Counted from the first letter of the stretch, positions 28,525 through 47,779 are shown. The stretch: 64,000 bases of DNA from Paenibacillus swuensis (GCF_001644605.1 NZ_CP011388.1:2942501-3006500), one strand, 5' to 3'. Program-made: numbers and translations. The notes: generated from the sequence alone by a model not told the origin.

Positions 28525-29516
<992 letters not shown>

Positions 29517-29517
<1 letters not shown>

Positions 29518-30538: not shown

Positions 30539-31312
30539 TTGAACAAAATTATTGAATTATATAACTATCGTCATATGTTATTCTCTCAAACAAGTTCAGA
30601 GTTGCGATCAAGATACAGAGGTTCAGTTTTTGGAATGCTATGGACCTTTATGATTCCGTTACTTATGTTAGGCGTATATACTCTGATTTTCTCAACCATT
30701 ATGAGAATGGACGTTGAGAATTATTCAGTATTCTTGTTTGTAGGTTTATTGCCATGGTTAAATTTTTCTGCAACTGTAAACACGAGTACAGGAATTTACA
30801 TCAGAAATTCTAATATTATTAAGAAAATTTACTTTCCAAGAGAAGTACTTCCCTTAGCTAACGTTCTAACAGGTAATATTAATTATTTATACGGTATGGT
30901 TATTCTTATTGCAGCTTTGTATATTTCCGGAATAGGATTGAGTGTTTACGCTCTATATTTCCCGCTCATATTAATTATTCAATCTATTTTAACTTTTGCC
31001 ATCGTATTAATTCTCTCTTCATTAACTGTGTATTTCAGGGATATTGAACATATTACCAATATTCTTACCATGTTATGGTTTTACTTTACTCCTATCATAT
31101 ATCCTTCTACATTAATTCCTCAAAAATATAAACAAATTTTCGAACTTAATCCTGTAGCACCCATAGTCAAGGCATATCAGGATATTTTCTATTATCAAAA
31201 AAGCCCCGATTTCGCATCTTTAGCAATTTGTGCTTGTATTTTTACATTATTATTGTTTTTTGCTTATTACTTACACCACAAACTTAATAGAAGAATGGCT
31301 GAAATGATATAG
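30539..31312 (+). CDS. wzm: polysaccharide ABC transporter permease (Wzm-like)
   Basis: TTG 30539 follows GTGAGG; no ATG start nearby gives a full protein. The 257-residue ABC-2 permease has six membrane helices and the typical N-terminal SELRSRYRGSVFGMLWTF segment. With the ATPase 12 bases downstream it forms a transporter that moves lipid-linked glycan chains across the membrane. Export by ABC transporter implies that the chain is completed, and usually terminally modified, inside the cell. Confidence 0.9.
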   Translation: MNKIIELYNYRHMLFSQTSSELRSRYRGSVFGMLWTFMIPLLMLGVYTLIFSTIMRMDVENYSVFLFVGLLPWLNFSATVNTSTGIYIRNSNIIKKIYFPREVLPLANVLTGNINYLYGMVILIAALYISGIGLSVYALYFPLILIIQSILTFAIVLILSSLTVYFRDIEHITNILTMLWFYFTPIIYPSTLIPQKYKQIFELNPVAPIVKAYQDIFYYQKSPDFASLAICACIFTLLLFFAYYLHHKLNRRMAEMI

Positions 31313-31324
31313 AGGTGAAAGAGA

Positions 31325-32545
31325 ATGTATAGTGTTGAAATTTCTAATGTATCTAAAACTTATAGGAATGTTACTGCTAGAAAGAAAACTCTTAAAGAGA
31401 TCTTTGTACAAAGGAAATTGGACAAGGTCGAAAATCAAATTGAACCTGTTGTCTTAAAGAATATAGATATTAAAATTAAAAAAGGTGAGACAGTCGCCTT
31501 AGTTGGACGTAATGGATCTGGAAAAAGTACTCTTTTAAAATTAATTTCGAAAATTCTATACCCGGATAAGGGGGAAGTTAAGGTAACTGGTAAAGTATCC
31601 AGCTTGTTAGAATTGGGTGCAGGCTTTCATCCGGAGTTTACGGGGCTTGAAAATATATATTTAAATGCAACAATCTTGGGATACTCTAAAGAAGAAATTA
31701 ACAGCAAGCTCAACGACATCATTGAATTTTCAGAGTTGAAAAGTTATATCTATAAACCCGTTAAGATATATTCTTCGGGTATGTATATGAGGCTTGCTTT
31801 CTCAATTGCTATAAATGTTGAACCTGATTTGTTGTTAATAGATGAAATATTATCAGTAGGGGATGCAGCCTTTCAAACGAAATGCATTGAGAAGATCAAA
31901 CAATTACAATCATTGGGAACTACTATTGTCATTGTAAGTCATGACAATGGTACCATTGAAAGATTGTGTCACCGTGCTATTTGGATTGAACTTGGTGAAA
32001 TTAAAGAAGATGGTAATGTTAAAGAGGTTGTTCTGAAATATATGAACAAGCTTAATAAAGGAAATGAGTCACATCAAATTCAAGAGGAATCCATTACTAA
32101 CGAGCAATTCGGAAATGGTTCTGTGAAGATAACAGATATTTATCTATACGACAGTGAAAATGTCCAAATAAATAAATTCAGTTCTTCCGAGAGGATTAGA
32201 ATTCAATTCCAATACAAAGTAACAGACTTCCCGACCTCTATTGTCTTCGGATTTGCTGTATATACTAAGAATCGAGAATGTATATATGGTACAAATACAT
32301 TGATTGAACAGGTACCCGTGATATTGGGAGAATATGGTCGTGTAGAAATTAAAATCCCTGAACTAAATTTACTACAAGGGTTATATGAAATTGACATTGC
32401 CGCTCATCATGAGAATGGTGCGCCATATCACTATATTAAGAGTGCCGTAGAATTTTCTGTCTTTTCCAACACAGCAGAGCACGGCATGTTTAAGATTAAT
32501 CACGAGTGGCAGGTAACAAGTAATGAGAAAGTAGGTAAATTATGA
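31325..32545 (+). CDS. wzt: polysaccharide ABC transporter ATPase with C-terminal glycan-binding-type domain (Wzt-like, 406 aa)
   Basis: Residues about 1-240 are the ATPase: Walker A GRNGSGKST (61-69), the signature YSSGMYMRL, Walker B LLLIDEILSVGD. Residues about 255-406 form an additional beta-rich domain, as in E. coli O9a Wzt, where such a domain recognises the terminal modification of the polymer before export. Its presence, and the methyltransferase gene overlapping the stop by 4 bases, point to capped-chain recognition. A Wzt without this domain would be about 250 residues. Confidence 0.9.
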   Translation: MYSVEISNVSKTYRNVTARKKTLKEIFVQRKLDKVENQIEPVVLKNIDIKIKKGETVALVGRNGSGKSTLLKLISKILYPDKGEVKVTGKVSSLLELGAGFHPEFTGLENIYLNATILGYSKEEINSKLNDIIEFSELKSYIYKPVKIYSSGMYMRLAFSIAINVEPDLLLIDEILSVGDAAFQTKCIEKIKQLQSLGTTIVIVSHDNGTIERLCHRAIWIELGEIKEDGNVKEVVLKYMNKLNKGNESHQIQEESITNEQFGNGSVKITDIYLYDSENVQINKFSSSERIRIQFQYKVTDFPTSIVFGFAVYTKNRECIYGTNTLIEQVPVILGEYGRVEIKIPELNLLQGLYEIDIAAHHENGAPYHYIKSAVEFSVFSNTAEHGMFKINHEWQVTSNEKVGKL

Positions 32546-33996
32546 TAGAGATTAAAGACAGTAATGTGGATGTTACTTTAATTATGGAAGAGATAAAGAA
32601 GGATTTGATAGAACGAAATATAACTGAGGATTTAAATGATCCAATGATCGATTTAAAGGTGCTGTATAGCGCGCATGGCCAAACGAACGAGGATTTGATG
32701 GAGTTATTAGATTCGAATCAGCGTTTAAACCGTTCGTGGAATTATGACAGTAATTTTGAAATTACCTCACACCGCAGATTCATTGGCCCTTTCATTGTTA
32801 CAGCAAAGAAAGTGATAAGAAAGATCACAAGATGGTATGTAGGTGTTAACTTTCAGAGACAAATTGATTTTAATGCAAATTTAGTAAGATATTTAAATCA
32901 GCAGTTAAAATCAACTCAAACTAATCCTCATTCTGAAAAAGAGAGAATGAATTTCATCAATAAACTAGATGAGAAACAAGCAAAACTAGTTTATCAAAAT
33001 AATACACTGACTCAAGAGTTACAAAAACTAACGGCTAAAATTGCAACTTTAGAGTCACAAGCCGAAATGGTTAAAACCGTTAGTGATAAATTTGAAAAAC
33101 AAGTTGCTATAATGAATGAAAGTTTACAACGCTTGACCGAAGAACGCAACAATGATTTATTTAAAGTTTCACAAATAAACAGCAATATGATTCAACAATT
33201 TAACCATCTTCAAGCAGTTGCAAATATTCATAATCACCAGTTGAAGAATATGCAACAGAATCAGCCTGGCAACATCCAGGAAAGAATCGGTAATGATTCT
33301 GAGACTAGTGAGAAAACATATTTTGACTATTTTGAATTCGAAGAGCAATATCGTGGACCCCGAGAAATGATTAAAGGTAAACAAAGTCAGTATCTAAAAT
33401 ATTGGAATAAACCCAATTTGTTAGTTCTGGATATTGGTTGTGGCCGTGGAGAATTTACAGAACTACTAAATGAAACCGGAATAGATACTATTTCAATAGA
33501 TTTAAACAAAGATGCGGTTGATTTTTGTAATAGGATCGGAATTCCAGCAGTTCATGGAGATGCTTTAGTTTATCTTAAACAACTTGATGATGATTCGATA
33601 GACGGTGTATTTTTAGGTCAAGTTATTGAACATCTGACTTTGGAACAAATACTTGAGGTAGCACAGGTTGCCTATCAGAAGCTTAGAAAAGACGGATGGT
33701 TTATAGCTGAGACCCCTAACCCGATGTCATTATCTATATTTGCCCAAAGTTTCTACCTGGACCCGACACATACTAAGCCAGTGCACCCATTCACTGCTAA
33801 ATTTATATTGGAGTCGAAGGGTTACAAAGATGTTGAGCTTCAATATTTCTCACCGAATGAAGAAAGATTAATTGTCCCTGCTTTGAAATTGGAGCATGAG
33901 AATGAAGACACTGCTAATCGATTTAATGAAACCATAAGCATAATGAACGAGTTTATATTTGGTAAACAGGATTATTTTGTTGCAGGCAAAAAGTAA
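32542..33996 (+). CDS. coiled-coil SAM methyltransferase, candidate chain terminator (484 aa)
   Basis: The N-terminal part carries a predicted long coiled coil (about residues 135-250, heptad-like Leu/Gln/Lys-rich). The C-terminal part (about 265-484) is a class I methyltransferase with motif I VLDIGCGRGEF (about 295-305), the acidic IDLNKDAV and the VIEHLT post-motif. It starts within the last codons of wzt (4-base overlap). In the E. coli O9a system, WbdD caps the chain and uses a coiled coil as a molecular ruler; in Geobacillus, WsaE methylates the terminal rhamnose. This protein has no kinase domain. A role as length-setting terminal methyltransferase is inferred. Confidence 0.75.
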   Translation: MIEIKDSNVDVTLIMEEIKKDLIERNITEDLNDPMIDLKVLYSAHGQTNEDLMELLDSNQRLNRSWNYDSNFEITSHRRFIGPFIVTAKKVIRKITRWYVGVNFQRQIDFNANLVRYLNQQLKSTQTNPHSEKERMNFINKLDEKQAKLVYQNNTLTQELQKLTAKIATLESQAEMVKTVSDKFEKQVAIMNESLQRLTEERNNDLFKVSQINSNMIQQFNHLQAVANIHNHQLKNMQQNQPGNIQERIGNDSETSEKTYFDYFEFEEQYRGPREMIKGKQSQYLKYWNKPNLLVLDIGCGRGEFTELLNETGIDTISIDLNKDAVDFCNRIGIPAVHGDALVYLKQLDDDSIDGVFLGQVIEHLTLEQILEVAQVAYQKLRKDGWFIAETPNPMSLSIFAQSFYLDPTHTKPVHPFTAKFILESKGYKDVELQYFSPNEERLIVPALKLEHENEDTANRFNETISIMNEFIFGKQDYFVAGKK

Positions 33997-34012
33997 GGGG
34001 ATATATAGAAAT

Positions 34013-35071
34013 ATGGAGATAAACCAGCTATTATCAACTGTGTCTTACGGTGATGCTGTAAGTAACTCTGCTCTAACCATTATGCGGTTATTAAGAGATC
34101 ATGGCATCAAATCTAATATTTATGCTGAAAATGTACACCCTAAACTTAAACAGATTGTAAAGGATATTAGCGATTGTCCTAAAAACAAAAATATTATATA
34201 TCACAAGTCTATAGGCAGTCAGATTTCAGAGACAATTAGACATTATAAAAAGAAGAAAGTAATGATTTATCACAACATAACTCCATCGCAATTCTTCAGT
34301 GGTTATTCTAATGATGCTGAACATCTGTGTAAATGGGGTAGGGAGCAATTGGGAACTTTAAAGCCACATGTAGATGCTGCGTTCGGTGATTCTGAGTACA
34401 ATTGCAATGAACTGATAAACTTGGGATACGAGAATGTAAATGTCTTACCTCTATTAGTTAATTTTAATGATTTTGAGGAAACGCAACCTAATTCAAAAAT
34501 ACTCGAAAATATAAGCAAAGTAAAAGGAACTAAATTACTGTTTGTAGGTAGAATCGCACCAAATAAGAAGCAAGAAGACATAATTAAGACATTCTACGTT
34601 TATAAGAAATATTTTGATGCCGAATCTAAATTATATTTGGTTGGTAATTATCTGGGCATGGAAAGATACTACTTAGAATTGAAGAAACTAATATCCATCT
34701 ACAATCTTGATCGAGATGTAGTAATTAGTGGACATGTTACATTTGATGAAATTGTTGCTTATTATCAAAAATCAGATGTATTTTTAGTTATGAGTGAGCA
34801 TGAGGGGTTTTGTGTACCTCTATTAGAAGCAATGCATCATGAAATACCGATTGTTTGTTTTAACTCTTCTGCATTGCCAGAGACTCTTGGCAATGGTGGT
34901 ATACTATTCAAGGAAAAGAATCATCAAGTTGTTGCAGGAGTTATTCATTATCTTCAGAAAAACCCACAATTAAGAGATACTATAATAACAAATCAAAAAA
35001 GAATTTTAGAGGAACAAGGTTCAGAGAAAACAAGTAAAGATTTTATTGAAAAGATACTATCTGTATTTTAA
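34013..35071 (+). CDS. glycosyltransferase family 4 protein (352 aa)
   Basis: I chose ATG 34013, 16 bases after the methyltransferase stop; the frame extends back to a TTG inside that gene but without support. The GT-B pattern is clear: LLFVGRIAPNKKQEDIIK (about 176-193) and SEHEGFCVPLLEAMHHEIPIVCF with the E-x7-E donor motif. No membrane segments. It probably adds one sugar of the glycan on the inner membrane face. Donor and acceptor are unknown. Confidence 0.82.
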   Translation: MEINQLLSTVSYGDAVSNSALTIMRLLRDHGIKSNIYAENVHPKLKQIVKDISDCPKNKNIIYHKSIGSQISETIRHYKKKKVMIYHNITPSQFFSGYSNDAEHLCKWGREQLGTLKPHVDAAFGDSEYNCNELINLGYENVNVLPLLVNFNDFEETQPNSKILENISKVKGTKLLFVGRIAPNKKQEDIIKTFYVYKKYFDAESKLYLVGNYLGMERYYLELKKLISIYNLDRDVVISGHVTFDEIVAYYQKSDVFLVMSEHEGFCVPLLEAMHHEIPIVCFNSSALPETLGNGGILFKEKNHQVVAGVIHYLQKNPQLRDTIITNQKRILEEQGSEKTSKDFIEKILSVF

Positions 35072-35084
35072 TGGAGAGATTATT

Positions 35085-36254
35085 GTGAAGAAGAAGATAG
35101 CATTCGTAATTCAACGTTATGGATTAGAAGTAAACGGTGGTTCTGAGTTGAGCTGTAGACTTATTGCTGAGCGTTTAACTAATGATTATGACGTTGAAAT
35201 TATTACTAGCAAAGCAATAGATTACGTAACTTGGAAGAACGAGTATACAGAAAATATTGAAGTTATTAATAGTGTAACTGTACGTAGATTTAGCGTAACT
35301 AGTCCTAGAGATAACATAAAATTTGATAAAATCAATACCCGAATGCTTACTCAATCCCATTCTATTCATGAAGAATACGATTGGATGGAAAATATGGGTC
35401 CACATGTACCAGATCTTCTAACTCATTTAGAACAACATAAGGACAGCTATGATAAAATCATATATTATACCTATTTATATTACCCAACCTACTTCGGTAT
35501 ACATATTGCGCCGGAAAAAAGTATATTTGTACCTACAGCACATGATGAACCATATATTTATTTAAATATGTTTAACTCTGAATTTAATTTACCTAAGTAT
35601 CTCTTGTTTTTAACTCAAGAAGAGAAACATTTCGTTCAGAAGAGATTCAATAATGCCCATATTCAGAACGATGTCATTGGAATTGGTGTGGATTGCCCGG
35701 ACGAGCTATATTCTAAACAAAATATAATGGAGAAATATAATCTTCCTGAAGATTATATTATCTATGCTGGCCGTATTGATGAATCCAAAGGTTGTAAAGA
35801 AATGCTGAACTATTATATGCAATATATTGAAAATGTTCCCAATGCTCCACAGTTGGTGCTAATAGGAAAAGCTGCTATGGATATTCCCAATAACCCTAAG
35901 ATTAGACCTCTAGGGTTTGTAAATGAGAAAGAAAAATACTCATTTATGAAATATGCTAAAGCATTAATTATGCCTTCCCAATATGAATCGTTTTCTATGG
36001 TAGTTATTGAAAGTCTCTCATTGGAAGTTCCGGTAGTGGTTAACGCGAAATGTGATGTGCTCGTAGGTCACTGTGTAAGGTCCAATGGCGGATTATATTA
36101 TAATAATGTACATGAGTTCGCAGCTGCAATTGAATACATTATAAGAAATCCGGAAGTTTCCTCTCAGATGGGCGTCAACGGAAAGTTGTATGTTGATAGC
36201 AATTATTCATGGGATGTTATAATAACAAAGTTCAAGGATGCGATAGAAAGCTAA
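35085..36254 (+). CDS. glycosyltransferase family 4 protein (389 aa)
   Basis: GTG 35085 with GGAGAG 6-8 bases upstream gives an N-terminus VKKKIAFVIQRYGLEVNGG, typical of GT4 acceptor domains; the frame reaches back to 35046 within the previous gene. The donor domain shows IIYAGRIDESKGCKEML and PSQYESFSMVVIESLSLEVPVVV with E-x7-E. It lies 13 bases after the previous glycosyltransferase. Sugar specificity is not readable from sequence. Confidence 0.82.
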   Translation: MKKKIAFVIQRYGLEVNGGSELSCRLIAERLTNDYDVEIITSKAIDYVTWKNEYTENIEVINSVTVRRFSVTSPRDNIKFDKINTRMLTQSHSIHEEYDWMENMGPHVPDLLTHLEQHKDSYDKIIYYTYLYYPTYFGIHIAPEKSIFVPTAHDEPYIYLNMFNSEFNLPKYLLFLTQEEKHFVQKRFNNAHIQNDVIGIGVDCPDELYSKQNIMEKYNLPEDYIIYAGRIDESKGCKEMLNYYMQYIENVPNAPQLVLIGKAAMDIPNNPKIRPLGFVNEKEKYSFMKYAKALIMPSQYESFSMVVIESLSLEVPVVVNAKCDVLVGHCVRSNGGLYYNNVHEFAAAIEYIIRNPEVSSQMGVNGKLYVDSNYSWDVIITKFKDAIES

Positions 36255-36305
36255 CTTCAATAAATATTGAACACCAGCTTAATTCATAAAGGATGGTACA
36301 ATTGT

Positions 36306-38432
36306 ATGTTTTATTTTCTTATTGTTTTAATTTTTTATGTATCTTTATCCTCTGCATATGGATTAGTAACAAGAATAAAGTTTGTTGATAAATATATTGA
36401 TAATCAACAAGGGAGTGTTATTTTGCTCCCTTTTTTAGGTATGTCAATATTGATTTCTATTCTTCAAACGGCTGGAATATTTGTAGGTACGAAATATATT
36501 ACACCTTTAATCGTTACTGGTGGTCTGATACTTGCTATAAATATGACAAATAAAGTTAGAATTAAATCTTACCTAAACAATAATGTTAATTACTATGTTG
36601 TAACCATATTAACATTAGTTGTGTTGATATATTCCATGCCGTCAATCATTGCTGGTTTCCCTACTTCTTTTTCAAGTATAAACAATGATTTAATTTTTTA
36701 TCTATCCATACCTGAATGGCTTCAAGATCACACTTATTTTGCTAAGCCTATATCTGACCAGTTGCATCCATTTTACTCAATTGCGGAACTTCACTTTTCT
36801 CGCTTTTCTCGAGTAGGTGCAGATTATATAAACACATTGGGCATGGATTTTTTTAATATCGGTGCAATACATACATTTAACATTATGTCTTGTTTATATG
36901 TGATATTTGTAGCTTTAGCAACTTACTATGTGTCAAAGTACTGTTTTAAACTCTCCAACTCAATCACATATACATGGATGTTTCTGTCATCAATAAACTC
37001 ATTAGTTTACTGGATGTTTACCACTCAATACATGCCACAACTTGGTGGTAATGCTTATTATTTGTTAAGTATAGGACTATTATATCGGTTATTTCATGAG
37101 AAGAACAATAAACTTCTACTGCAGTCTGCGTTAAGTATAGTTGGCTTAATATCAATATATAGTGAATATACTGCTTACTTAGCTCTTCCTGTATTCATAT
37201 ATATTGTATATCTTGCGATTATAGAAAAACATAAACTACTTGATTTATTAAAAAGGTTATCGTTACTTATCGTTTGTTGTATACTTCTTAATCCGGTTGC
37301 TGTATATCTCTGCGTCAGATATAACTTATTTGCGTATACAACAACGCAAAATAATACTGGTATTGTTGAATACATTCCATTTTCAAATCAAATTTTAATG
37401 TTGTTGGGAATAAAAACGCTCGATTATAACAAACCTACTTTGTTAATAATATTAATTTCAATAATTATTATAGCAGTAATGTTATTCGGTTTAATAAAAT
37501 TAAAGAAGGAAGTATTTAGATATATTCTGTTATATCTGTCTTTTATTGTATTGATGTTATTTTACTTAACTTTTATAAATCATTTCCCATATGGTTATTA
37601 CAAAACATTAATGTTCGCAATACCTATAGCTATGTTACTATTCTCAGTGGGTACGAATGAACTACTTAAAAATGAAAGAAAAAGATATCTACCTTTACTT
37701 CTCGCGGTGTTATTAATTTTTAACATTCCTCAAATGTACAAGCTACAAAACGGAATATTAAATAATGGTCACCTGATAACAAACACCTATCTGGAATTGA
37801 ATGAAATGGAAAAACTCATTCCAATAAATGAAACCTTGTATATAGAGGGTTATACAATGAATGAGCAACATATGATTGCATATTTTTTGAAAGAACGAAG
37901 TTTATTTTTTGTTAATTCTAACTCATACTTCACTCCATTGAACAAACAAGAGAACGCCCCTGTTAAATATACACTCAAACAAAGTGCTACAGACATCACA
38001 CCCCAAAATGGAGAAACAATCTGGAGTAATCAAAAGTTTAATTTAATACGCAATTCGAACAACGATTTTAAGTTAAACTTAGGAGTAGGTTGGCATCAGA
38101 TTGAGAGATGGGCTAATGTTCCAACAAGGTGGACAGAAGAGAAGTTTACTCTCAACTTAAGTTCGAGGAAAAATATAAGTAATTCCATAGAATTTAATGC
38201 TTATTTACCGCCAGAAGTTAAAGAGCGTACTTTAGACATATTCGTCTCGGATAAGAAAATTTCCGAAATAAAGATTACAAATGACAAGCAAACATATTCC
38301 ATTCCAATATTAAATTCGAATAGTAGTTCGGGCTTTGAAATTCAAATTAAGGTTCGTGAAGGGGCTGTACAAGTAGGTAGTGATCCGAGAATGTTAGGCA
38401 TAGCTATCCAAAATATTAAGATGACAGAGTAA
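36306..38432 (+). CDS. large multi-spanning membrane protein, possible GT-C-type glycosyltransferase (708 aa)
   Basis: ATG 36306 has AAAGGATGG upstream; the frame extends back to a TTG at 36267. Residues about 1-470 contain some 12 membrane helices with a luminal-type loop after the fourth (about residues 125-165, with FSSINNDLIFYLSIPEW). Residues about 480-708 form a soluble domain with a beta-rich end. This layout resembles GT-C enzymes that use polyprenyl-phosphate sugars outside the membrane, though I see no diagnostic DD/DE motif beyond the NNDL region. With the UbiA/PAP2 pair downstream, a lipid-phospho-pentose-dependent transferase is plausible. It could also be an uncharacterised polysaccharide membrane protein. 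Confidence 0.55.
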   Translation: MFYFLIVLIFYVSLSSAYGLVTRIKFVDKYIDNQQGSVILLPFLGMSILISILQTAGIFVGTKYITPLIVTGGLILAINMTNKVRIKSYLNNNVNYYVVTILTLVVLIYSMPSIIAGFPTSFSSINNDLIFYLSIPEWLQDHTYFAKPISDQLHPFYSIAELHFSRFSRVGADYINTLGMDFFNIGAIHTFNIMSCLYVIFVALATYYVSKYCFKLSNSITYTWMFLSSINSLVYWMFTTQYMPQLGGNAYYLLSIGLLYRLFHEKNNKLLLQSALSIVGLISIYSEYTAYLALPVFIYIVYLAIIEKHKLLDLLKRLSLLIVCCILLNPVAVYLCVRYNLFAYTTTQNNTGIVEYIPFSNQILMLLGIKTLDYNKPTLLIILISIIIIAVMLFGLIKLKKEVFRYILLYLSFIVLMLFYLTFINHFPYGYYKTLMFAIPIAMLLFSVGTNELLKNERKRYLPLLLAVLLIFNIPQMYKLQNGILNNGHLITNTYLELNEMEKLIPINETLYIEGYTMNEQHMIAYFLKERSLFFVNSNSYFTPLNKQENAPVKYTLKQSATDITPQNGETIWSNQKFNLIRNSNNDFKLNLGVGWHQIERWANVPTRWTEEKFTLNLSSRKNISNSIEFNAYLPPEVKERTLDIFVSDKKISEIKITNDKQTYSIPILNSNSSSGFEIQIKVREGAVQVGSDPRMLGIAIQNIKMTE

Positions 38433-38453: not shown

Positions 38454-38828
38454 ATGCTAAAGATGTTTGTTATGATTTTCATCATTGTTTTAACTGGTGT
38501 TGGAGGACCTCCTTTAATTAAGCTTGGAGCTATGAGAGAGACTAATAGGATTAATTCAATAATGAGTGGAGATATATTATCTGTCTTTTATGTGTTAATT
38601 AATCCTTATATTTTCTTGGGACTGGTACTTTACTTTGTAAGTGCTGTAACTTGGATTGTAATTCTATCTAAATATCAACTGAGTTTTGTAAGTCCTTTGT
38701 TATCAGTTAATTATATATTTTCGTTGATTGTAGGTTATTACTTATTTCAAGAACCGGTTAACATGGCTAGAATTATTGGAGCTGTAATAATAACTATCGG
38801 TGTTGTAATTATGACATTAAAGGGTTAG
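38454..38828 (+). CDS. small EamA/SMR-type membrane protein, possible lipid-sugar flippase (124 aa)
   Basis: Four membrane helices, with the SMR/EamA-like second half (FVSPLLSVNYIFSLIVGYYLF followed by a polar stretch and GAVIITIGVVIMT). Small proteins of this superfamily, such as ArnE/ArnF, flip undecaprenyl-phosphate sugars. Its place between a GT-C-like protein and a lipid-phosphate module suggests the same job. AAGGAG precedes ATG 38454. A drug-efflux role is less likely inside a glycan operon. Confidence 0.65.
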   Translation: MLKMFVMIFIIVLTGVGGPPLIKLGAMRETNRINSIMSGDILSVFYVLINPYIFLGLVLYFVSAVTWIVILSKYQLSFVSPLLSVNYIFSLIVGYYLFQEPVNMARIIGAVIITIGVVIMTLKG

Positions 38829-38855: not shown

Positions 38856-40001
38856 ATGAAAATATTAATAGTGTTAAATTACTATTATCCTTATATAAGT
38901 GGGTTATCTGAATGTGCTCGTTCATTAGCAGAAGAGCTTGCCAAAGATCACGATGTTACGGTATTAACGGCTAAGCATGAGGAAAACCTAAGTAACACCG
39001 AGCATATTAACGGTGTAAAAGTGGTTAGGGCAGATATTTTATTTAAGATAAGTAAAGGATATATCAGCCCTGCATACCTAAAGTTATTCGCAAAGTTACA
39101 GAAAGAGGCGGATATAGTAAATTTACATTTACCTATGATAGAATCTGGAATTTTAAGTATGCTAACTGAGAAACATAAACTTTATATTACATATCAATGT
39201 GATATCCACTTAACTAAATCAACGCTTAATCAACTTATAACAAAAGTAATGGATAAATCATCGTCTGTTGCGTTGAATAGGGCAAATAAAGTAATTATCT
39301 CAAGTAGTGACTATGCTGAAAATTCAAGATTTCTTCCTAAATTTGCAGAGAAATTAATTGAAATTCAACCTACATCTCCTACTTATGAGAAATTATTAAA
39401 CCATCATGACAATATAAACAAATCTAAAGAAAAACTTCGTATAGGTTTCTGTGGTAGGATAGTAGAGGAGAAGGGGATAGATGTATTATTAAGAGCAGCC
39501 CCTAAGCTTAAAGAAGTATTTCCAAATTTGGAAATTGAAATAGTTGGTGATTACAAAAGCGTTGCAGGCGGTAGTGTTTATACGGAATTGAAGGCTAACA
39601 TAGGATGGGATGAAAGCTATGTACATTTCACAGGCCGCTTATCAGATAGTGAAATCTTAAACTTTTATCGATCAATTGATATATTTGTATTACCTAGTAT
39701 TAATTCTCTCGAGGCTTTTGGAATGGTACAGATAGAGGCCATGCTTGCAGGGGTTCCGGTAGTGGCAACGAATTTACCTGGGGTAAGAGAAATTGTAGGG
39801 AACACAAAGATGGGAGAGATTGTAGAGCCCAAAGATGTTAATGATTTAACCAATAAAATTATTACAGTATTACAAAATAAGAATCAGTACGTTAAACCTA
39901 CAAGTTATATTAACTCATTGTATGGTGTAGAGAGTGCAAAGAATAAATATATTCAAATGTTTAAAGATAATAATCAATTTTATTCACAGGAGATAAACTA
40001 A
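38856..40001 (+). CDS. glycosyltransferase family 4 protein (381 aa)
   Basis: The N-terminus (MKILIVLNYYYPYISGLSE) and donor domain (IGFCGRIVEEKGIDVLL; LPSINSLEAFGMVQIEAMLAGVPVVAT with E-x7-E) are classic GT4. GAGGTAAG precedes ATG 38856. Its stop TAA overlaps the next ATG by one base. Specificity is unknown; the coupling to the PAP2-like gene may mean a functional link. Confidence 0.82.
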   Translation: MKILIVLNYYYPYISGLSECARSLAEELAKDHDVTVLTAKHEENLSNTEHINGVKVVRADILFKISKGYISPAYLKLFAKLQKEADIVNLHLPMIESGILSMLTEKHKLYITYQCDIHLTKSTLNQLITKVMDKSSSVALNRANKVIISSSDYAENSRFLPKFAEKLIEIQPTSPTYEKLLNHHDNINKSKEKLRIGFCGRIVEEKGIDVLLRAAPKLKEVFPNLEIEIVGDYKSVAGGSVYTELKANIGWDESYVHFTGRLSDSEILNFYRSIDIFVLPSINSLEAFGMVQIEAMLAGVPVVATNLPGVREIVGNTKMGEIVEPKDVNDLTNKIITVLQNKNQYVKPTSYINSLYGVESAKNKYIQMFKDNNQFYSQEIN

Positions 40002-40396
40002 TGCCGTATTTCCTAGTTCCGCTCGTTGCTTGGTTTGTTGCCGGAGTTCTTAAATTTGCTATTAATGCTATACAACATGGCTCGGACGCAAAGAAATTAA
40101 TTGGAAATGGTGGCTTCCCAAGTAATCATACAACTGTAATTACCTCCATAACTTCATTAATTGGTTTAAACGAAGGTTGGTATGACCCCGCATTCGGACT
40201 TGGCATTGCTGTACTAATGATTGTAATATTTGATGCCAGCGGTATAAGAAGACAAGTTGGGTACCATGCAACCTATTTGAACACAAAGGATAATGAAGCC
40301 GGATTAAGAGAAAGAGTCGGACATAGCAAAATAGAGATAGCGGGCGGATTGATATTGGGAATTTTAATATCACTCGGTTTTCATATTTGTTTTTAG
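40001..40396 (+). CDS. divergent PAP2 family phosphatase-like membrane protein (131 aa)
   Basis: This is the DUF212/YuiD-type divergent PAP2 family: the GGFPSNHTT segment (about residues 38-46) carries the PAP2-like S-x-H, and VGYHATYLN with RERVGHSKIEIAGG completes the pattern; several membrane helices. PAP2 enzymes remove phosphate from lipid phosphates. In mycobacteria a PAP2-type protein (Rv3807c) is encoded next to the UbiA-type DPPR synthase and is proposed to remove the 5-phosphate. The same adjacency here (15-base gap) suggests an equivalent step. Confidence 0.75.
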   Translation: MPYFLVPLVAWFVAGVLKFAINAIQHGSDAKKLIGNGGFPSNHTTVITSITSLIGLNEGWYDPAFGLGIAVLMIVIFDASGIRRQVGYHATYLNTKDNEAGLRERVGHSKIEIAGGLILGILISLGFHICF

Positions 40397-40411
40397 AGGA
40401 GGTGTGGATAG

Positions 40412-41305
40412 ATGAATAGAGTAATGGTTGCTGCTAAAAAGAATCAAGCCAATATGATGCTAAATTTACTTTTAGAGATGCGTCCGAAACAATGGACAAA
40501 GAACATCTTGGTGTTCGCATCTGCACTATTTTCAGGAAACATATTTCTAACTTCCACTTTTATTAATGCATTTTTAGCATTTATAGCATTTTCATTCATT
40601 TCTAGTACGGTTTATATAATTAATGATATTGTGGATATCGAGAAAGACCGCCAACATCCAGATAAATGTAAACGTCCGTTAGCTTCAGGTGCATTATCTG
40701 TTCCTGCTGCAGTGACTTCAGCAATTTTCTTATGTTTTATTTCTCTAACTATTGCATTCTTAATAAATACAGAAGTTCTTTTCATTGTTATGCTTTATTT
40801 CATTATTAATCTGTTTTATACGCTCAGATTAAAGCATGTAGTATTAATTGATGTGATGATAATAGCTTCAGGATTTGTCTTAAGAGCAGTATGTGGAGCC
40901 TTTGCAACCGGTGGGGTAATAACATCATGGTTTATTCTTTGCATACTTGGTCTATCGCTCTTTTTAGCATTGGGTAAAAGAAGGCATGAATTAGTTTTGT
41001 TTAATGACATTCCTGAGAAGCAAAGGAAAGTTCTGCAGCATTATAGTGTAGAGTTACTTGATCAACTTATGACTGTTATAACAGGACTGTTATTGATGTT
41101 CTTCTCTATGTATGCTGCATCTCAAGAATCTGGAATGATGTACACAATTCCATTGGCAATTTATGGGGTATTTCGCTATTATTATCTTATTCATAAGAAG
41201 AATGGTGGAGGAAAGCCTGAAGAAATACTACTTAACGATAAACATATTCTAGCGACTGTTATTATGTTCGGTCTAGTTGTGGTTCTGATTAAGACACAAT
41301 TATAA
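40412..41305 (+). CDS. UbiA-type decaprenyl-phosphate phosphoribosyltransferase-like enzyme (297 aa)
   Basis: GAGGAGG precedes ATG 40412. The membrane protein has the UbiA metal/diphosphate motif N71-D72-x2-D75-x3-D79, followed by KRPLASG, and the features that mark the phosphoribosyltransferase subgroup: RPKQWTKNILVFA near residue 25 and LALGKRRHEL near residue 190. Mycobacterial DPPR synthase (Rv3806c) of this group moves 5-phosphoribose from PRPP to decaprenyl phosphate. Here the lipid would be the host polyprenyl phosphate. No DprE1/DprE2 epimerase genes are nearby, so the product may be used as ribose rather than arabinose. It is not a quinone or haem prenyltransferase by motif. Confidence 0.82.
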   Translation: MNRVMVAAKKNQANMMLNLLLEMRPKQWTKNILVFASALFSGNIFLTSTFINAFLAFIAFSFISSTVYIINDIVDIEKDRQHPDKCKRPLASGALSVPAAVTSAIFLCFISLTIAFLINTEVLFIVMLYFIINLFYTLRLKHVVLIDVMIIASGFVLRAVCGAFATGGVITSWFILCILGLSLFLALGKRRHELVLFNDIPEKQRKVLQHYSVELLDQLMTVITGLLLMFFSMYAASQESGMMYTIPLAIYGVFRYYYLIHKKNGGGKPEEILLNDKHILATVIMFGLVVVLIKTQL

Positions 41306-41323: not shown

Positions 41324-42067
41324 ATGAAAGGAGTCATACTAGCAGGCGGAACAGGATCGAGATTATATCCTCTGACTAAAGTAACCAATAAACATCTGCT
41401 TCCTGTAGGTAAGTATCCTATGATCTTTCATAGTATCTCCAAGCTAAAGGAAGCTGGCATTATTGATATTCTAGTTGTTACCGGAAAAGACCATATGGGC
41501 GACGTAGTGAATTTGCTGGGCAGCGGGGCTTCCATGGGGACAAATTTTACATATAAGGTTCAGGATGAAGCTGGAGGTATTGCCCAAGCATTGAGCTTGG
41601 CCGAGCAATTTGTCTGCGGTGATCAAATGGTAGTTATTCTGGGTGACAATGTCTTCTCAGAGTCAATAACTTCCTTCGTGAACAATTTTGCTGAACAAGA
41701 AGTTGGTGCTAAGATCTTGATTCAGGAAGTACATGACCCCGGACGGTACGGAGTTACTGAACTGCAAGGTGATAAAATTATCTCCATCGAAGAAAAACCG
41801 CAGAAGCCTAAGAGTAACTTCGCGGTGACCGGCATATATATGTATGATAGCCGTGTGTTCGAGATCATCAAGACATTGAAACCTTCAGGTCGCGGAGAAT
41901 TGGAGATAACGGACGTTAATAATGCTTATATTTCTGATAACCAACTTACGTACGATATCCTTACTGGATGGTGGACGGATGCGGGAACGCATGCCTCCTT
42001 ATCTAAGGCCAATGAACTTGCCTATGAACTTTCTTTTGGTGAAGAATTTGGGAAACTTAAACTATAA
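41324..42067 (+). CDS. rmlA: glucose-1-phosphate thymidylyltransferase
   Basis: This enzyme makes dTDP-glucose, the entry to dTDP-L-rhamnose. The signature GGTGSRLYPLTKVTNKHLLPVG lies at residues about 8-29, with GDNVF and WTDAGTHASL later on. At 247 residues it belongs to the short RmlA/SpsI form (the classical form has about 290 and an extra C-terminal helix region). AGGAGG precedes ATG 41324. It opens the rmlACBD block, the order known from the Geobacillus slg cluster. Confidence 0.9.
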   Translation: MKGVILAGGTGSRLYPLTKVTNKHLLPVGKYPMIFHSISKLKEAGIIDILVVTGKDHMGDVVNLLGSGASMGTNFTYKVQDEAGGIAQALSLAEQFVCGDQMVVILGDNVFSESITSFVNNFAEQEVGAKILIQEVHDPGRYGVTELQGDKIISIEEKPQKPKSNFAVTGIYMYDSRVFEIIKTLKPSGRGELEITDVNNAYISDNQLTYDILTGWWTDAGTHASLSKANELAYELSFGEEFGKLKL

Positions 42068-42079
42068 GTGGGTGCATAA

Positions 42080-42622
42080 ATGAATGTAATCCAAACGAAG
42101 CTTGCTGGCGTACTAATTATTGAGCCGGCTGTATTCGAGGATCATCGTGGCTTTTTTCTGGAAAGTTACACGAGTCATAAGTTTGCGGATGTTGGAATTA
42201 ACATGACTTTTATTCAAGATAATCACTCACTCTCTGTTGAACCAGGCGTATTGCGTGGACTACACTATCAATTAGCACCGAAAGCACAAACTAAATTAGT
42301 TCGTGTTGCTAAAGGCGCAATTTATGATGTGGCAGTGGATATACGCAAAGAATCGTCAACCTATGGTCAATGGGTAGGTGTTATTCTTAGTGAAGCCAAT
42401 AAACGGCAACTGCTTGTTCCTCGCGGGTTCGCTCATGGATTCTGTACCATTGTTCCTAATACAGAGGTTCTGTATAAGGTAGATGAGGTCTACTCTCCAG
42501 AACATGACCGAGGAATTGCCTGGAACGACCCATCCTTGAATATTGATTGGCCAACGTTGAATCCAATTCTTTCCGATAAAGATCAGAAACACCCCCTGAT
42601 GAAAGATGCGGAGACTTTTTAG
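42080..42622 (+). CDS. rmlC: dTDP-4-dehydrorhamnose 3,5-epimerase
   Basis: Cupin-fold epimerase of 180 residues acting on dTDP-4-keto-6-deoxyglucose. Visible motifs: FEDHRGFFLESY near residue 19, FIQDNHSLS, GVLRGLHYQ with the active-site His, and VPRGFAHGF. It lies 12 bases after rmlA and 17 before rmlB. Codon use and base composition are intermediate between the AT-rich genes upstream and the GC-richer genes downstream. Confidence 0.95.
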   Translation: MNVIQTKLAGVLIIEPAVFEDHRGFFLESYTSHKFADVGINMTFIQDNHSLSVEPGVLRGLHYQLAPKAQTKLVRVAKGAIYDVAVDIRKESSTYGQWVGVILSEANKRQLLVPRGFAHGFCTIVPNTEVLYKVDEVYSPEHDRGIAWNDPSLNIDWPTLNPILSDKDQKHPLMKDAETF

Positions 42623-42639
42623 ATGGAGGTCCGGCGAAC

Positions 42640-43629
42640 ATGAATATTCTAGTCACCGGCGGTGCCGGATTTATAGGCAGTAACTTTGTTATTTACATGC
42701 TGAACAAGTACGAGAACTACAACATCATCAACCTGGATGCGTTGACGTATGCAGGTAACTTGGAGAACCTGCAGTCTGTTGCTAATCACCCGAACTACAC
42801 GTTCGTCAAAGGCGATATCGCGGACAAAGAGCTAGTTGAGCGGATTTTTGCCAAAGGTGTAGACTATGTAGTTCACTTTGCTGCGGAATCGCACGTGGAT
42901 CGCAGTATTGAAGGTCCTGAAGTGTTCGTCATGACGAATGTGATGGGAACGCAAGTGTTGCTGGATGCGGCAAAGAAACACAATGTGAAGAAATTTGTCC
43001 ATGTGAGCACGGATGAAGTGTACGGAACGCTGGGTGAAACGGGTTTGTTCACGGAAGAGACGCCTTTGGCGCCAAATTCTCCGTATTCCGCGAGTAAAGC
43101 AGGCTCCGACCTGTTGGTTCGCGCTTACCACGAAACTTTCGGTCTGCCTGTTAATATCACACGTTGTTCGAACAACTATGGACCTTACCAGTTCCCTGAG
43201 AAGTTAATTCCACTTATGATTGCAAATGCACTAGCGGATAAATCGTTGCCAGTGTATGGCGACGGCATGAATGTGCGTGACTGGTTGTTTGTCGAGGACC
43301 ATTGCAGCGCAATTGATTTGGTTCTTCACCAAGGGAAGAACGGTGAAGTATACAATGTCGGCGGGAACAATGAGCGTCCTAATATTGATATTGTAAAGAC
43401 GATTCTACAACAATTAGGGAAGCCGGACAGTCTGATTCAATATGTACAAGATCGTCTTGGACATGACCGCCGTTACGGCATCGATGCGACCAAGATTACG
43501 AACGAGCTTGGCTGGAAGCCGAAGCATAATTTCGACACAGGCATTGAATATACTATTCAATGGTACCTGGACAATCAAGAGTGGTGGAACCGGATCCTTA
43601 CCGGCGAATACCAACAGGTGAACCCGTAA
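42640..43629 (+). CDS. rmlB: dTDP-glucose 4,6-dehydratase
   Basis: Extended SDR of 329 residues: GGAGFIGSNFV at the N-terminus, AAESHVDRSI, the STDEVYG segment and catalytic YSASK. It dehydrates dTDP-glucose to the 4-keto-6-deoxy sugar. GGAGG precedes ATG 42640. Its stop overlaps the rmlD start by one base. Confidence 0.96.
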   Translation: MNILVTGGAGFIGSNFVIYMLNKYENYNIINLDALTYAGNLENLQSVANHPNYTFVKGDIADKELVERIFAKGVDYVVHFAAESHVDRSIEGPEVFVMTNVMGTQVLLDAAKKHNVKKFVHVSTDEVYGTLGETGLFTEETPLAPNSPYSASKAGSDLLVRAYHETFGLPVNITRCSNNYGPYQFPEKLIPLMIANALADKSLPVYGDGMNVRDWLFVEDHCSAIDLVLHQGKNGEVYNVGGNNERPNIDIVKTILQQLGKPDSLIQYVQDRLGHDRRYGIDATKITNELGWKPKHNFDTGIEYTIQWYLDNQEWWNRILTGEYQQVNP

Positions 43630-44471
43630 TGAAGGTTCTGGTTACTGGTGCAAACGGTCAATTGGGGCAGGATGTGGTCCTGCTGTTTAGGAAGGACCAT
43701 GAAGTGCTGGGGCTCGGACGAGACGGTTTGGATATCACCAACGCGGATCAGGTTAGGACGCAAGTCCTTGCCTTCCATCCCGATGTGATCATCCACTGCG
43801 CAGCCTATACGGCGGTTGATCTGGCGGAAACCGAGGTAGTTCAAGCTTACGCGGTGAATGCGGTCGGTACGCGGAATTTGGCCGTGGCTGCGCAAGAAGT
43901 CGGAGCCAAGATCTGTTACATCAGCACGGACTACGTGTTTAACGGAACGGGAACCCAGCCTTACCGCGAGTATGACAATACAGACCCGCAAAGTGTCTAC
44001 GGCGCAAGCAAACGCGCAGGGGAAATCCTTACCCAAACCCTCAACCACCGATATTTCATCGTACGCACCTCATGGGTGTACGGCGAATACGGCAACAATT
44101 TCGTGAAGACGATGTTGAAATTTGGTCGTGAACGCGACGAGCTAAAAGTCGTCCATGATCAAATAGGTTCGCCTACCTACACGGTGGACTTAGCGCAATT
44201 CTTGCTGGAACTGGTGCAAACCGACAAGTTCGGCGTATACCATGCTTCCAACACCGGGGCTTGTTCCTGGTTTGAGTTCGCTCAAGCGATTTTCGAGGAA
44301 GCATCCATTGAAGTACGTACCGTTCCATGCACGACCGAGGAGTTCCCTCGACCGGCCAAACGCCCGTCCAATTCCGTGATGGAGCACCTGTCGATCCGCA
44401 CAAATGGACTCACAGACTTGAGACCATGGAGAGAAGCGCTTCGCGACTTCCTATCCCAACACAAAGGATAA
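43629..44471 (+). CDS. rmlD: dTDP-4-dehydrorhamnose reductase
   Basis: ATG 43629 overlaps the rmlB stop (TAATG) and opens the expected MKVLVTGANGQLGQDV. The catalytic YGASK and the STDYVFNG segment are present; 280 residues is the family length. The enzyme makes dTDP-L-rhamnose with NADPH. A longer frame to 43560 inside rmlB is not needed. Confidence 0.95.
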   Translation: MKVLVTGANGQLGQDVVLLFRKDHEVLGLGRDGLDITNADQVRTQVLAFHPDVIIHCAAYTAVDLAETEVVQAYAVNAVGTRNLAVAAQEVGAKICYISTDYVFNGTGTQPYREYDNTDPQSVYGASKRAGEILTQTLNHRYFIVRTSWVYGEYGNNFVKTMLKFGRERDELKVVHDQIGSPTYTVDLAQFLLELVQTDKFGVYHASNTGACSWFEFAQAIFEEASIEVRTVPCTTEEFPRPAKRPSNSVMEHLSIRTNGLTDLRPWREALRDFLSQHKG

Positions 44472-44477
44472 ACCCAC

Positions 44478-45422
44478 ATGAAACTTAGTGTTCATATTGT
44501 TACCTACAACAGCGCAGAAGATATTAACGACTGCTTGCAAGCGGTGTTCAAACAAACGTATCCGATCCGGGAGATCATCATCATCGATAATGCTTCCACC
44601 GACGGGACGAAGGAGCAGCTTCAGAAGTACAGGGAACGCTGCAGGGTGAGCATCAATTCCAGCAATGTCGGGTTCGCCCAAGGTCACAACCAGGCGATCC
44701 AACTGTCCAACGCCGATTATTACTTGGTTCTTAATCCGGATGTGGTTCTGCATCCGGATTACCTTTATCATCTTATGAAAATCGTTGAAAACAACCCAGC
44801 CGTCGGCAGCCTCACCGGCAAGTTATTGTCCGCGGAACACCCCGATTTGATCGACAGCACCGGCCTCGATATCAAGGCCTCCCGCCGTTGCTTCGACCGC
44901 GGCCAAGGCCAGCCGGAAGCGAACTTTAACGAACCCGCCGAGGTATTCGGGGTATCCGGAGCCGCTGCACTTTACAGCCGCGCGATGGTGGAGGATATCA
45001 GCTGGAAGGGGGAGTTTTTTGACGAGACCTTTTTTGCCTATAAAGAAGACATTGATGTGGCCTGGAGAGCGCAAATTCGCGGATGGACCTCCCGTTACGT
45101 TCCTGAAGCAACCGCTCATCATGAGCGTGGGTGGAAGCCTAAATCCCGAAACTCCAGACCGCTTTTTATACGGAAATACTCCTATATCAATCGGTACCAA
45201 ATGATGCTCAAAAACGAATCCCCGCTCTACATGCTCAGAGGAGCGTTCCGAATCCTGCCTTTTGAAATCGCAAGCTTCGGTTATATGCTTCTGAAGGAGC
45301 CGCAAGTGTTAGGGGCTTGGGTGGATCTGGTGCGCAACATTCCGGAAATCCTGGAGAAACGCAGGCATCTGATGCGGGGCCGTAAACGGGGCTGGAAGGA
45401 AATCTATCGATTTTTTACATAA
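44478..45422 (+). CDS. glycosyltransferase family 2, rhamnosyltransferase-like (314 aa)
   Basis: GT-A fold: VHIVTYNSAEDINDCL, IIDNASTDGT, NVGFAQGHNQAI and the D-x-D-like LNPDVVL, followed by GEFFDETFFAYKEDIDVAWR. These features are typical of the WbbL-type rhamnosyltransferase group. The position straight after rmlACBD supports L-rhamnose transfer. A hydrophobic C-terminal segment may attach it to the membrane. AAAGGAT precedes ATG 44478. Confidence 0.85.
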   Translation: MKLSVHIVTYNSAEDINDCLQAVFKQTYPIREIIIIDNASTDGTKEQLQKYRERCRVSINSSNVGFAQGHNQAIQLSNADYYLVLNPDVVLHPDYLYHLMKIVENNPAVGSLTGKLLSAEHPDLIDSTGLDIKASRRCFDRGQGQPEANFNEPAEVFGVSGAAALYSRAMVEDISWKGEFFDETFFAYKEDIDVAWRAQIRGWTSRYVPEATAHHERGWKPKSRNSRPLFIRKYSYINRYQMMLKNESPLYMLRGAFRILPFEIASFGYMLLKEPQVLGAWVDLVRNIPEILEKRRHLMRGRKRGWKEIYRFFT

Positions 45423-45494
45423 ATGTTCATAGTCTTTTAACAAAATAGTAGTATAATAGGAAAATAAATGTCGAATTTACTTGGTGAACAACGA

Positions 45495-46364
45495 ATGGAT
45501 TTAAGCATAATCATTGTGAATTATAACACGGAGAAGCTGACGCTGGATTGCATCGCCTCTTTGGAACGCTCCGAAATGGGTACATATGCATATGAAGTGG
45601 TTCTGGTCGATAACGGATCCGTCGATGATACGATGCGCCAAGTGGGCATGAAGTTTCCCCAAGTGCGTAGGATAGAGAATCACGCGAATTTGGGTTACTC
45701 CAAAGGCAATAACATCGGCATCCGCGCCGCATCCGGTCGATACATCCTGTTGCTGAACTCGGATACCTTGGTGGAAACGGATACGCTGCGTACGATGATC
45801 ACATTCATGGATGAAAACCCTACGGTGGGCGCTGCGGGCTGTAAAGTTGTGCTTCCGGATGGCAGCCTGGATAAAGCCTGTAAACGGGGTTTCCCGACTC
45901 CCTCGGCTTCTTTCTATTACGCGTTCGGGTTCTCCAAGCTGTTTCCCAAGGTAGAGCGGTTTAATCAATATCAGCTGGGGTATTTAAACCCGGATGAAGA
46001 TTATCCTGTCGATTGCCTGGTGGGCGCGTTCATGATGGTTCGCCGCGATACGATTGATGCAGTTGGGATGCTGGATGAGGAATTCTTCATGTACGGCGAA
46101 GATATTGACTGGTGTTATCGGATGAAAGAAGCCGGTTGGGGCATTTACTACTACCCTAAAGCCCGGATAACGCATCTGAAAGGCGCGAGTTCAAGGAAGA
46201 AGCCAAAGAAAATTATTTATGAGTTTCATCGCGCGATGATTCTCTTTCACCGCAAGCATTATCAGAAGAAGTATCCCTGGCTGGTGAACGGTATGGTCTA
46301 CGCGGGTATCGGTGTTAAGTACGCCATGTCGTTGTTGTTGAATCGATTCGGATCTGTGAGGTGA
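45495..46364 (+). CDS. glycosyltransferase family 2, rhamnosyltransferase-like (289 aa)
   Basis: The GT-A domain starts at once with MDLSIIIVNYNTEKLT, then VDNGSVDDT, NLGYSKGNNIGI and LNSDTLVE; the acceptor-side EEFFMYGEDIDWCYR is typical of WbbL-like enzymes. I chose ATG 45495, where the domain begins, with GGTGA ahead; ATG 45468 would add nine residues and has AGGA ahead. A TATAAT at 45452-45457 with no clear -35 lies in the 72-base gap. It is paralogous in layout to the previous gene. Confidence 0.83.
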   Translation: MDLSIIIVNYNTEKLTLDCIASLERSEMGTYAYEVVLVDNGSVDDTMRQVGMKFPQVRRIENHANLGYSKGNNIGIRAASGRYILLLNSDTLVETDTLRTMITFMDENPTVGAAGCKVVLPDGSLDKACKRGFPTPSASFYYAFGFSKLFPKVERFNQYQLGYLNPDEDYPVDCLVGAFMMVRRDTIDAVGMLDEEFFMYGEDIDWCYRMKEAGWGIYYYPKARITHLKGASSRKKPKKIIYEFHRAMILFHRKHYQKKYPWLVNGMVYAGIGVKYAMSLLLNRFGSVR

Positions 46365-46372
46365 GTGGTTAG

Positions 46373-47779
46373 ATGGTAAGGCAAAATCAATCGGTCTTTG
46401 CACAACTATACGCAATTACGGATATCGTGTGCATCCAGGTCATTTTCCTGCTGTCCTACTGGCTTAAATTCCAGAGCGGATGGATTCCATTCGAGCATTC
46501 ATTACCTTTTAATCGGTATTTCCTATGGGCGCTCGTATATGGACTGATCGCTGTAGGTACAGGGTATATTGTCGGTTTCTATACTTCCAAGAGGCGCAAA
46601 AACTACGCTTTTGAATTCTATAAGGTCATTCAGGTCCATATTATCAGTTTGTTTATCTTGCTGAGTGTCCTCTTTATTTATAAGGAAGTGGACGTTTCCC
46701 GTTCCTTCCTGCTCCTGTTTATTATGAATAATATCCTTGCGTTAAGCTTCTACCGCTATCTTCTGAAGGTAACCCAACGGGGCATGCGCAGCCGGGGATA
46801 CAACAAGCAGTTCGTCTTGATTCTCGGTGCGGGAACGCTGGGCCGCAGATTCTATAAATCCGTGAATCATCATCCTGAGCTGGGCTTTGAAGTGCTGGGC
46901 TTCCTCGATGATCACAAGGATGTGCACGACCAGCCGAATGAAAATATGAAGCCGATTCTGGGCGCTATTGACGATCTCGAAGCGACGTTGAAAGAACATC
47001 TCGTGGATGAAGTCATCATCGCGCTGCCGTTGGACGCGCATCACAAGTATGCGCAGATTATCAACGTATGTGAGCGCGACGGCGTCAAGACGCTGATTAT
47101 CCCGGATTTCTTCGATGTGCTGCCTTCGCGGCCGTACTTCGATAATTTTGCGGGGATTCCTCTAATCAATGTGAGAGACATTCCGTTGGATGAGGTTCGG
47201 AACCGCCTGTTGAAACGGGCTTTCGATATTCTGTTCTCCGCGGCCACGTTGCTTATTATCAGTCCGTTGCTGCTGCTCATTGCGCTCGCTGTCAAGCTGG
47301 ATTCCAAAGGGCCTATTATCTACAAGCAAGAGCGCGTCGGGTTAAATCGACGAAATTTCTTTATGTATAAATTTCGCTCGATGCGTACGGATTATGCGCA
47401 TACGTCGGATACAGGCTGGACGGTGAAGGACGATCCGCGCATGACGGCTCTCGGGAAGCTCCTACGAAGAACAAGTCTGGATGAACTGCCGCAGTTCCTG
47501 AATGTTCTGCTGGGGCATATGAGTGTCGTCGGACCTCGTCCGGAGCGTCCTTATTATGTGGAACAATTCAAGGAAGACATCCCTAAATATATGGTCAAAC
47601 ATCATATTCGCCCGGGCATCACCGGATGGGCCCAGATGAATGGACTGCGCGGCGATACCTCGATTGAGGAGCGCATTAAGCATGACATATTTTATATAGA
47701 AAATTGGACGTTCTTGTTCGATCTCAAAATCATTATGAAGACGTTTGTGAACGGGTTTGTCAATAAGAACGCGTACTAA
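46373..47779 (+). CDS. polyprenyl glycosylphosphotransferase (WcaJ/WsaP-like initiating enzyme, 468 aa)
   Basis: This enzyme starts glycan assembly by moving a hexose-1-phosphate from a UDP-sugar to undecaprenyl phosphate. Four N-terminal membrane helices (about 10-115), a Rossmann-like central domain ([13 protein letters not shown] near 140) and a fifth hydrophobic segment (about 285-305) precede the catalytic domain. There, [46 protein letters not shown] and [12 protein letters not shown] are diagnostic. It matches in length the S-layer glycan initiator WsaP (about 470). GAGGTGAG precedes ATG 46373. The sugar (glucose or galactose) cannot be told. Confidence 0.93.

Follow-up and report, generated by a model that had tools for sequence, protein, structure and literature searches.

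The window analysed here is a stretch of 64,000 nucleotides from Paenibacillus swuensis (NZ_CP011388.1:2942501-3006500), in which the genes between 27445 and 47779 form an uninterrupted plus-strand run; several of them overlap, and no intergenic gap exceeds 59 bases. This run and two minus-strand genes before it comprise the following features, given with the matches on which the assignments are based:

21703-23325, minus strand: SLH-domain protein with three SLH repeats (PF00395, 125 bits)
23420-25921, minus strand: O-antigen-ligase (Wzy_C) family membrane protein, candidate protein O-glycosyl ligase (PF04932, 52 bits)
27445-28524, plus strand: ManC-like mannose-1-phosphate guanylyltransferase, GDP-mannose supply (TIGR01479, 347.8 bits, just under the cut-off of 373; PF22640)
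28546-29517, plus strand: Gmd, GDP-mannose 4,6-dehydratase (TIGR01472, 445 bits, cut-off 415)
29517-30479, plus strand: RMD, GDP-6-deoxy-D-lyxo-4-hexulose reductase, leading to GDP-D-rhamnose (PDB 2pk3, E 1.8e-84)
30539-31312, plus strand: Wzm, membrane subunit of an ABC-2 glycan exporter (PF01061)
31325-32545, plus strand: Wzt, ABC ATPase with a C-terminal carbohydrate-binding domain (PF00005 and PF14524, Wzt_C)
32542-33996, plus strand: methyltransferase-domain protein (PF08241, 49.6 bits) whose long N-terminal part matches no family; candidate chain terminator
33959-36254, plus strand: two GT4 glycosyltransferases (PF00534 in each)
36267-38432 (alternative start 36306), plus strand: large membrane protein, proposed GT-C pentofuranosyltransferase (hydrophobic segments, operon slot)
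38454-38828, plus strand: EamA/SMR-like small membrane protein, proposed polyprenyl-phosphoryl-ribose flippase (weak EamA/ArnF-like matches: PF00892, E 4e-6; ArnF/ArnE, E ~1e-6)
38856-40001, plus strand: GT4 glycosyltransferase (PF00534, 125 bits), likely engaged in backbone sugar transfer
40001-40396, plus strand: DUF212 (divergent PAP2) protein, proposed 5'-phosphatase (PF02681)
40412-41305, plus strand: PPPRS, UbiA-family polyprenyl-phosphate 5-phosphoribosyltransferase (NF008977, NF008978, PDB 8j8j)
41324-44471, plus strand: rmlA, rmlC, rmlB and rmlD, dTDP-L-rhamnose supply (TIGR01221, TIGR01181 and TIGR01214 over cut-off; RmlA model under cut-off)
44478-46364, plus strand: two GT2 glycosyltransferases (PF00535)
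46373-47779, plus strand: initiating phosphoglycosyltransferase of the WcaJ type (TIGR03023, 510 bits, cut-off 411)

The initiating transferase, ABC exporter, rml genes, ligase and SLH protein of the slg-cluster gene set are all in the window, and the description of the locus as an S-layer-type glycan operon in the original prediction is fair by gene content, with attachment to an S-layer protein being predicted. The same prediction had pointed to a GT-C-like membrane gene and a small EamA/SMR gene upstream of a phosphatase and a UbiA gene, and both are found there; it had not included the GT4 gene at 38856-40001, which lies between the SMR-like and DUF212 genes and overlaps the latter (TAATG). 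A second SLH-domain protein is encoded at 1687-2904; the gene after it, at 2923-9159, has a product of 2078 aa in which CARDB, Ig-like and PKD domains are recognised.

The 297-residue product of 40412-41305 had been named a UbiA-type phosphoribosyltransferase on the basis of three motifs, all of which are present (RPKQWTKN, NDIVDIEKD and GKRRHEL), and profile search and structure prediction bore this out. Two curated NCBIfam equivalogs of decaprenyl-phosphate phosphoribosyltransferase accept the protein: NF008977 at 236 bits (cut-off 234), which no other protein of the genome passes, and NF008978 at 229 bits (cut-off 207). In a sequence search of the PDB, Rv3806c ranks first (8j8j, E 1e-40), and it is also the rank 1 fold match (TM 0.85/0.87) of an AlphaFold2 model made with 18 sequences (mean pLDDT 89.6). 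We mapped the Rv3806c residues that bind PRPP and Mg (PMC10994848) onto the protein using its alignment with the 8j8j sequence: K28, N73, D77, Y138, K143 and K208 are kept as K30, N71, D75, Y136, K141 and K206, while Q135, a further binding residue, becomes N133. Sequence and modelled fold identify the protein as a PPPRS, distinct from the UbiA enzymes of quinone and haem synthesis. It does belong to the UbiA Pfam family, with three further members in the genome, yet a conventional prenyltransferase role in making quinones, haem or lipids is extremely improbable: both fold and binding residues match Rv3806c, and the haem-O (cyoE), UbiA-other and 4-hydroxybenzoate prenyltransferase models give at most 35 bits. 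Together with the fold, these scores rule out the quinone and haem groups, a placement that the original prediction had named as its refutation.

The neighbouring gene had been described as that of a PAP2-like phosphatase adjoining the UbiA gene. The adjacency stands, the two open reading frames being on the plus strand with 15 bases between them, but the family does not: the 131-residue protein matches PF02681 (DUF212, 'divergent PAP2') at 108.6 bits against a gathering cut-off of 26.5, and the Pfam search gave no match to PF01569, the separate PAP2 family. The phosphatases adjoining PPPRS in the actinobacteria tested, Rhodococcus and Tsukamurella, are PF01569 proteins, and the DUF212 profile could be aligned with one of these partners around the PSxH motif only. 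Single-sequence structure prediction of the DUF212 protein was too poor for use (pLDDT 56), and a PDB profile search with the DUF212 alignment returned nothing useful. YuiD-type proteins are of the same Pfam family, and the host encodes one elsewhere (G000:C1:3462978); these differ from the PPPRS-linked group in motif (TTGGMPSSHS, versus GNGGFPS[NT]HT), form a separate group in the tree and have no PPPRS linkage. Scans of viral contigs found no relatives of the DUF212, GT-C-like or UbiA proteins.

We then asked how DUF212 and PPPRS genes are distributed among relatives. PPPRS is present in 122 of 392 genomes of the host's order (130 genes). A DUF212 profile seeded with twelve PPPRS-linked proteins, with hits taken at E <=1e-30, retrieved 49 genes in 45 of these 392 genomes, every one of them (49/49) within 2.4 kb of a PPPRS gene and on the same strand; because the seeds were chosen as PPPRS neighbours, this is a property of the PPPRS-linked subfamily and not of DUF212 as a whole. 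A search of 398 genomes of the phylum added just three DUF212 genes with scores as high, all from outside the order and all with a PPPRS gene within ~4 kb; the next two (117-120 bits) have none in the 18 kb taken around them. The PPPRS-linked members cluster together (support 84/78) in a tree built from 43 DUF212 proteins. The pairing greatly exceeds chance expectation.

The phosphatases linked to PPPRS also appear to replace one another. Of 70 PPPRS loci from the order, many of them from one genus and thus non-independent, 17 have DUF212 only, 40 have only a HAD phosphatase (PF12710), none has both and 13 have neither, so that a linked phosphatase is not obligatory. The conserved motifs of DUF212 lie in two loops; summed over 26 PPPRS-linked proteins, these hold 273 Lys/Arg and 127 Asp/Glu residues, against 10 and 33, respectively, in the opposite loop. 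Under the positive-inside rule these charges predict a cytoplasm-facing active site, on the side where the ribose-5-phosphate lipid should be made.

A last line of evidence comes from a genome of the host's class, in which one locus (L143:4599-10905) encodes, in this order, PPPRS, DprE1, a DprE2-like SDR, an LPG_synthase_TM protein, DUF212 and a PMT_2 glycosyltransferase. The best PDB match of the DprE1 protein is DprE1 itself (E 3.5e-87), and its NCBIfam DprE1 score is 450 bits, under the cut-off of 500. Dephosphorylation is the only pathway step without an assigned gene in this locus, which makes DUF212 the natural 5'-phosphatase candidate. The locus is a candidate arabinofuranose donor pathway from outside the actinobacteria, and the membrane protein at its flippase position is of a third type, besides SMR and GtrA.

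Taking together the 49/49 linkage, the lack of co-occurrence with HAD and the completed PPPRS-DprE1-DprE2 locus, we conclude that the DUF212 protein of the window is most likely the 5'-phosphatase of polyprenyl-phosphoryl-ribose-5-phosphate. A role in polyprenyl diphosphate recycling, as an aid to the flippase or as a structural component, with an unlinked phosphatase removing the 5'-phosphate, is unlikely. It would fit the 13 loci that have neither linked phosphatase and the existence of recycling phosphatases of the PAP2 kind, and our literature search found no characterised DUF212 member; recyclers, however, would not need to track PPPRS as strictly as these genes do, and both the mutual exclusion with HAD and the predicted cytoplasmic orientation of the active loops speak against such a role. 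For the subfamily at large, defined by G[NY]GGFPS[NT]HT...RE..GH...E[IV], we consider it reasonably likely that these small membrane proteins, with an active site on the cytoplasmic side, add a third and independent type of polyprenyl-phosphoryl-ribose 5'-phosphatase to the PAP2 and HAD types. It would serve ribose pathways that have no epimerase, pathways with an SDR, and arabinose pathways with DprE1/DprE2.

The gene order of the window (GT-C-like, flippase, GT4, DUF212, PPPRS, rml) recurs in L085, L091 and L100 and is rearranged in L148, the place of the GT4 gene being kept in all four. In a second context, a compact set of four genes, PPPRS-SMR-DUF212-GT, is found in L072, L073, L076, L080, L082 and L103-L105, and with the last two genes swapped in L071, L075, L150 and L151. 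The flippase slot is filled by GtrA (PF04138) in L085 (4661-5089) and L091 (10955-11377), and by the SMR-like protein in the window; judging from these profile assignments, flippase families are exchanged within one operon type.

Other arrangements around PPPRS were also observed. In L090, L093, L102 and L022 the HAD frame beside PPPRS is longer (~317-364 aa) and runs into hydrophobic segments, which suggests HAD-transporter fusions. A DUF362 protein lies beside PPPRS at L017:4797-5948 (Pfam match in L017), and the same protein cluster occurs in L018, L019 and others; these are unrelated bacteria, with no recognised linked phosphatase. In Clostridium (L009-L016, L020, L034), PPPRS, a membrane protein of 415-441 aa and an SMR protein occupy one conserved place 3' of the RNase Y gene, with no linked HAD or DUF212 phosphatase. 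A Lactococcus plasmid (L155, NZ_PP589792.1) encodes a 533 aa hypothetical protein, PPPRS, a HAD-IB phosphatase and GtrA.

The product of 36267-38432 has no Pfam match, and a PDB profile search with the alignment of its family gave nothing useful. It has about 11 hydrophobic segments followed by a C-terminal soluble domain, residues N126, D128 and Y132 are invariant in 8 homologues, and its gene is found in the same operon slot in L085, L091, L100 and L148. On the basis of its hydrophobic segments, N/D/Y motif, C-terminal domain and operon position we propose that it is a GT-C-like glycosyltransferase. Comparison of its family with another GT family found beside PPPRS in relatives gave no convincing alignment (probability 8%). 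A homologue of 26% identity is encoded in an ABC-transporter glycan cluster (L149, 8534-10675) of a genome without a PPPRS hit (G193), and the family may therefore use more than one lipid-linked sugar. This homologue, and the lack of a profile match to known GT-C families, would accord with a membrane glycosyltransferase that uses a different lipid-linked sugar while another enzyme uses the ribose lipid. We regard this as improbable, since the close homologues (39-49% identity, L108-L110) are all in PPPRS/DUF212 clusters and no second GT-C-like gene was recognised in the operon; the GT-C-like protein of the window is accordingly kept as the candidate ribofuranosyltransferase.

The identity of the sugar depends on whether an epimerase acts on the lipid. 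A search of the whole genome for an ALO-domain (DprE1-type) protein gave no match, although it detects the Corynebacterium glutamicum control, in agreement with the original prediction that DprE1 is absent. The SDR at 29517, a conceivable ribose epimerase, is ruled out as such by its identification as RMD, and the cluster contains no unassigned SDR. In the absence of a DprE1-like gene, ribofuranose is the expected sugar, and what had been put forward as a possible donor is thus the one that gene content predicts. The same lipid pathway could end in arabinofuranose or xylofuranose if an epimerase were encoded elsewhere in the genome. Relatives appear to make such a modification: besides the locus with DprE1/DprE2, L145:6452-10764 encodes PPPRS, SMR, an SDR, DUF212 and a membrane protein, with the SDR between SMR and DUF212, and a single SDR turns Ribf into Xylf in Citrobacter O2 (PMC11127046). 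Nevertheless, epimerases, when present, sit within the module, and with neither an ALO-domain protein in the genome nor a spare SDR in the cluster an unlinked epimerase has little likelihood. By analogy with Citrobacter ORF13, the L145 SDR may be a ribose-to-xylose type epimerase, and the three gene sets (no epimerase, DprE1/DprE2, SDR) match predictions for Ribf, Araf and possibly Xylf, respectively (PMC11127046).

With ribofuranose as the preferred product, the candidates in this one operon support the core of the earlier proposal that phosphatase, UbiA protein, membrane glycosyltransferase and small transporter form one lipid-pentose pathway, and the gene set for loading ribose onto a lipid, flipping it and adding it to a chain is apparently complete. 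PPPRS would make the polyprenyl ribose-5-phosphate lipid on the cytoplasmic side, a step strongly supported by sequence and fold. DUF212 would then take off the 5'-phosphate at the cytoplasmic face to give undecaprenyl-phosphoryl-ribofuranose, as its very consistent gene association suggests. Gene content and order point to the two later steps, in which the SMR-like protein would flip this lipid outward and the GT-C-like enzyme would add an external ribofuranose side branch, probably alpha-linked. The acceptor would be a rhamnose-containing chain, polymerised inside the cell and exported by Wzm/Wzt, which the Wzy_C-family ligase would join to a surface protein. We hold this ribofuranose mechanism as a whole to be quite probable.

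The mycobacterial pathway for a lipid-linked pentose consists of Rv3806c, Rv3807c, DprE1, DprE2 and Rv3789. The window resembles it in having a PPPRS with a conserved PRPP site, for which Rv3806c is the nearest solved structure, and a separate membrane phosphatase gene beside it; it differs in that the genome lacks a DprE1-like gene and in that the flippase candidate is SMR-like and not of the GtrA type. Judged by gene content, the DUF212/PPPRS pair is a putative functional counterpart of Rv3806c/Rv3807c, with a phosphatase from another family.

A second parallel is found in Gram-negative bacteria. The pathway of PPPRS, phosphatase, small transporter and GT-C enzyme has been worked out in Citrobacter O antigens, which gives a precedent for every step (PMC11127046), and that paper also mentions Gram-positive candidates. 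The three-component system of Citrobacter youngae O1/O2 comprises ORF15 (PPPRS+HAD), ORF14 and ORF12, a GT136 enzyme (PMC11127046). The window likewise has PPPRS, an EmrE/ArnE-like small transporter and a GT-C-like enzyme that ends in a soluble domain, and in both cases ABC-transporter glycan genes lie alongside, with ManC/Gmd/Rmd and a candidate terminator of the methyltransferase type. In Citrobacter, however, the 5'-phosphatase is a HAD domain (PF12710 superfamily) fused in ORF15, whereas the window has a separate DUF212 membrane protein; the product is an O antigen, whereas the window holds an S-layer-type cluster; and ORF12 is a GT136 member, the membrane glycosyltransferase of the window a candidate GT-C enzyme. 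On gene content, the window most probably holds a 'three-component' pentofuranose system (Kelly 2024) within an ABC-transporter S-layer-type glycan cluster.

The original prediction that no described slg cluster has such a module was too strong, given the Citrobacter pathway and the S-layer glycan of Clostridium difficile Ox247 (SLCT-11), which carries alpha-ribofuranose branches that are lost in orf4 mutants (PMC6254364). As described there, the Ox247 locus shares with the window an S-layer-type cluster, an ABC transporter, rml genes and a ligase, and the text consulted leaves the ribose-donor genes unassigned (PMC6254364). The ribose module therefore has a precedent, ribofuranose having been reported from an S-layer glycan of C. 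difficile. The lipid-ribose pathway itself is known; the new elements are the candidate DUF212 phosphatase and the strictness with which it is linked to PPPRS.

These results connect the pathway described in 2024 for O antigens of Gram-negative bacteria with S-layer-type clusters in the host's order, where PPPRS occurs in about one third of the genomes sampled. Unrelated families occupy each of the phosphatase, flippase and epimerase slots, and the sugar would therefore be predictable from gene content. If the proposed role is true, a part of the DUF212 family would gain a concrete and easily tested function.
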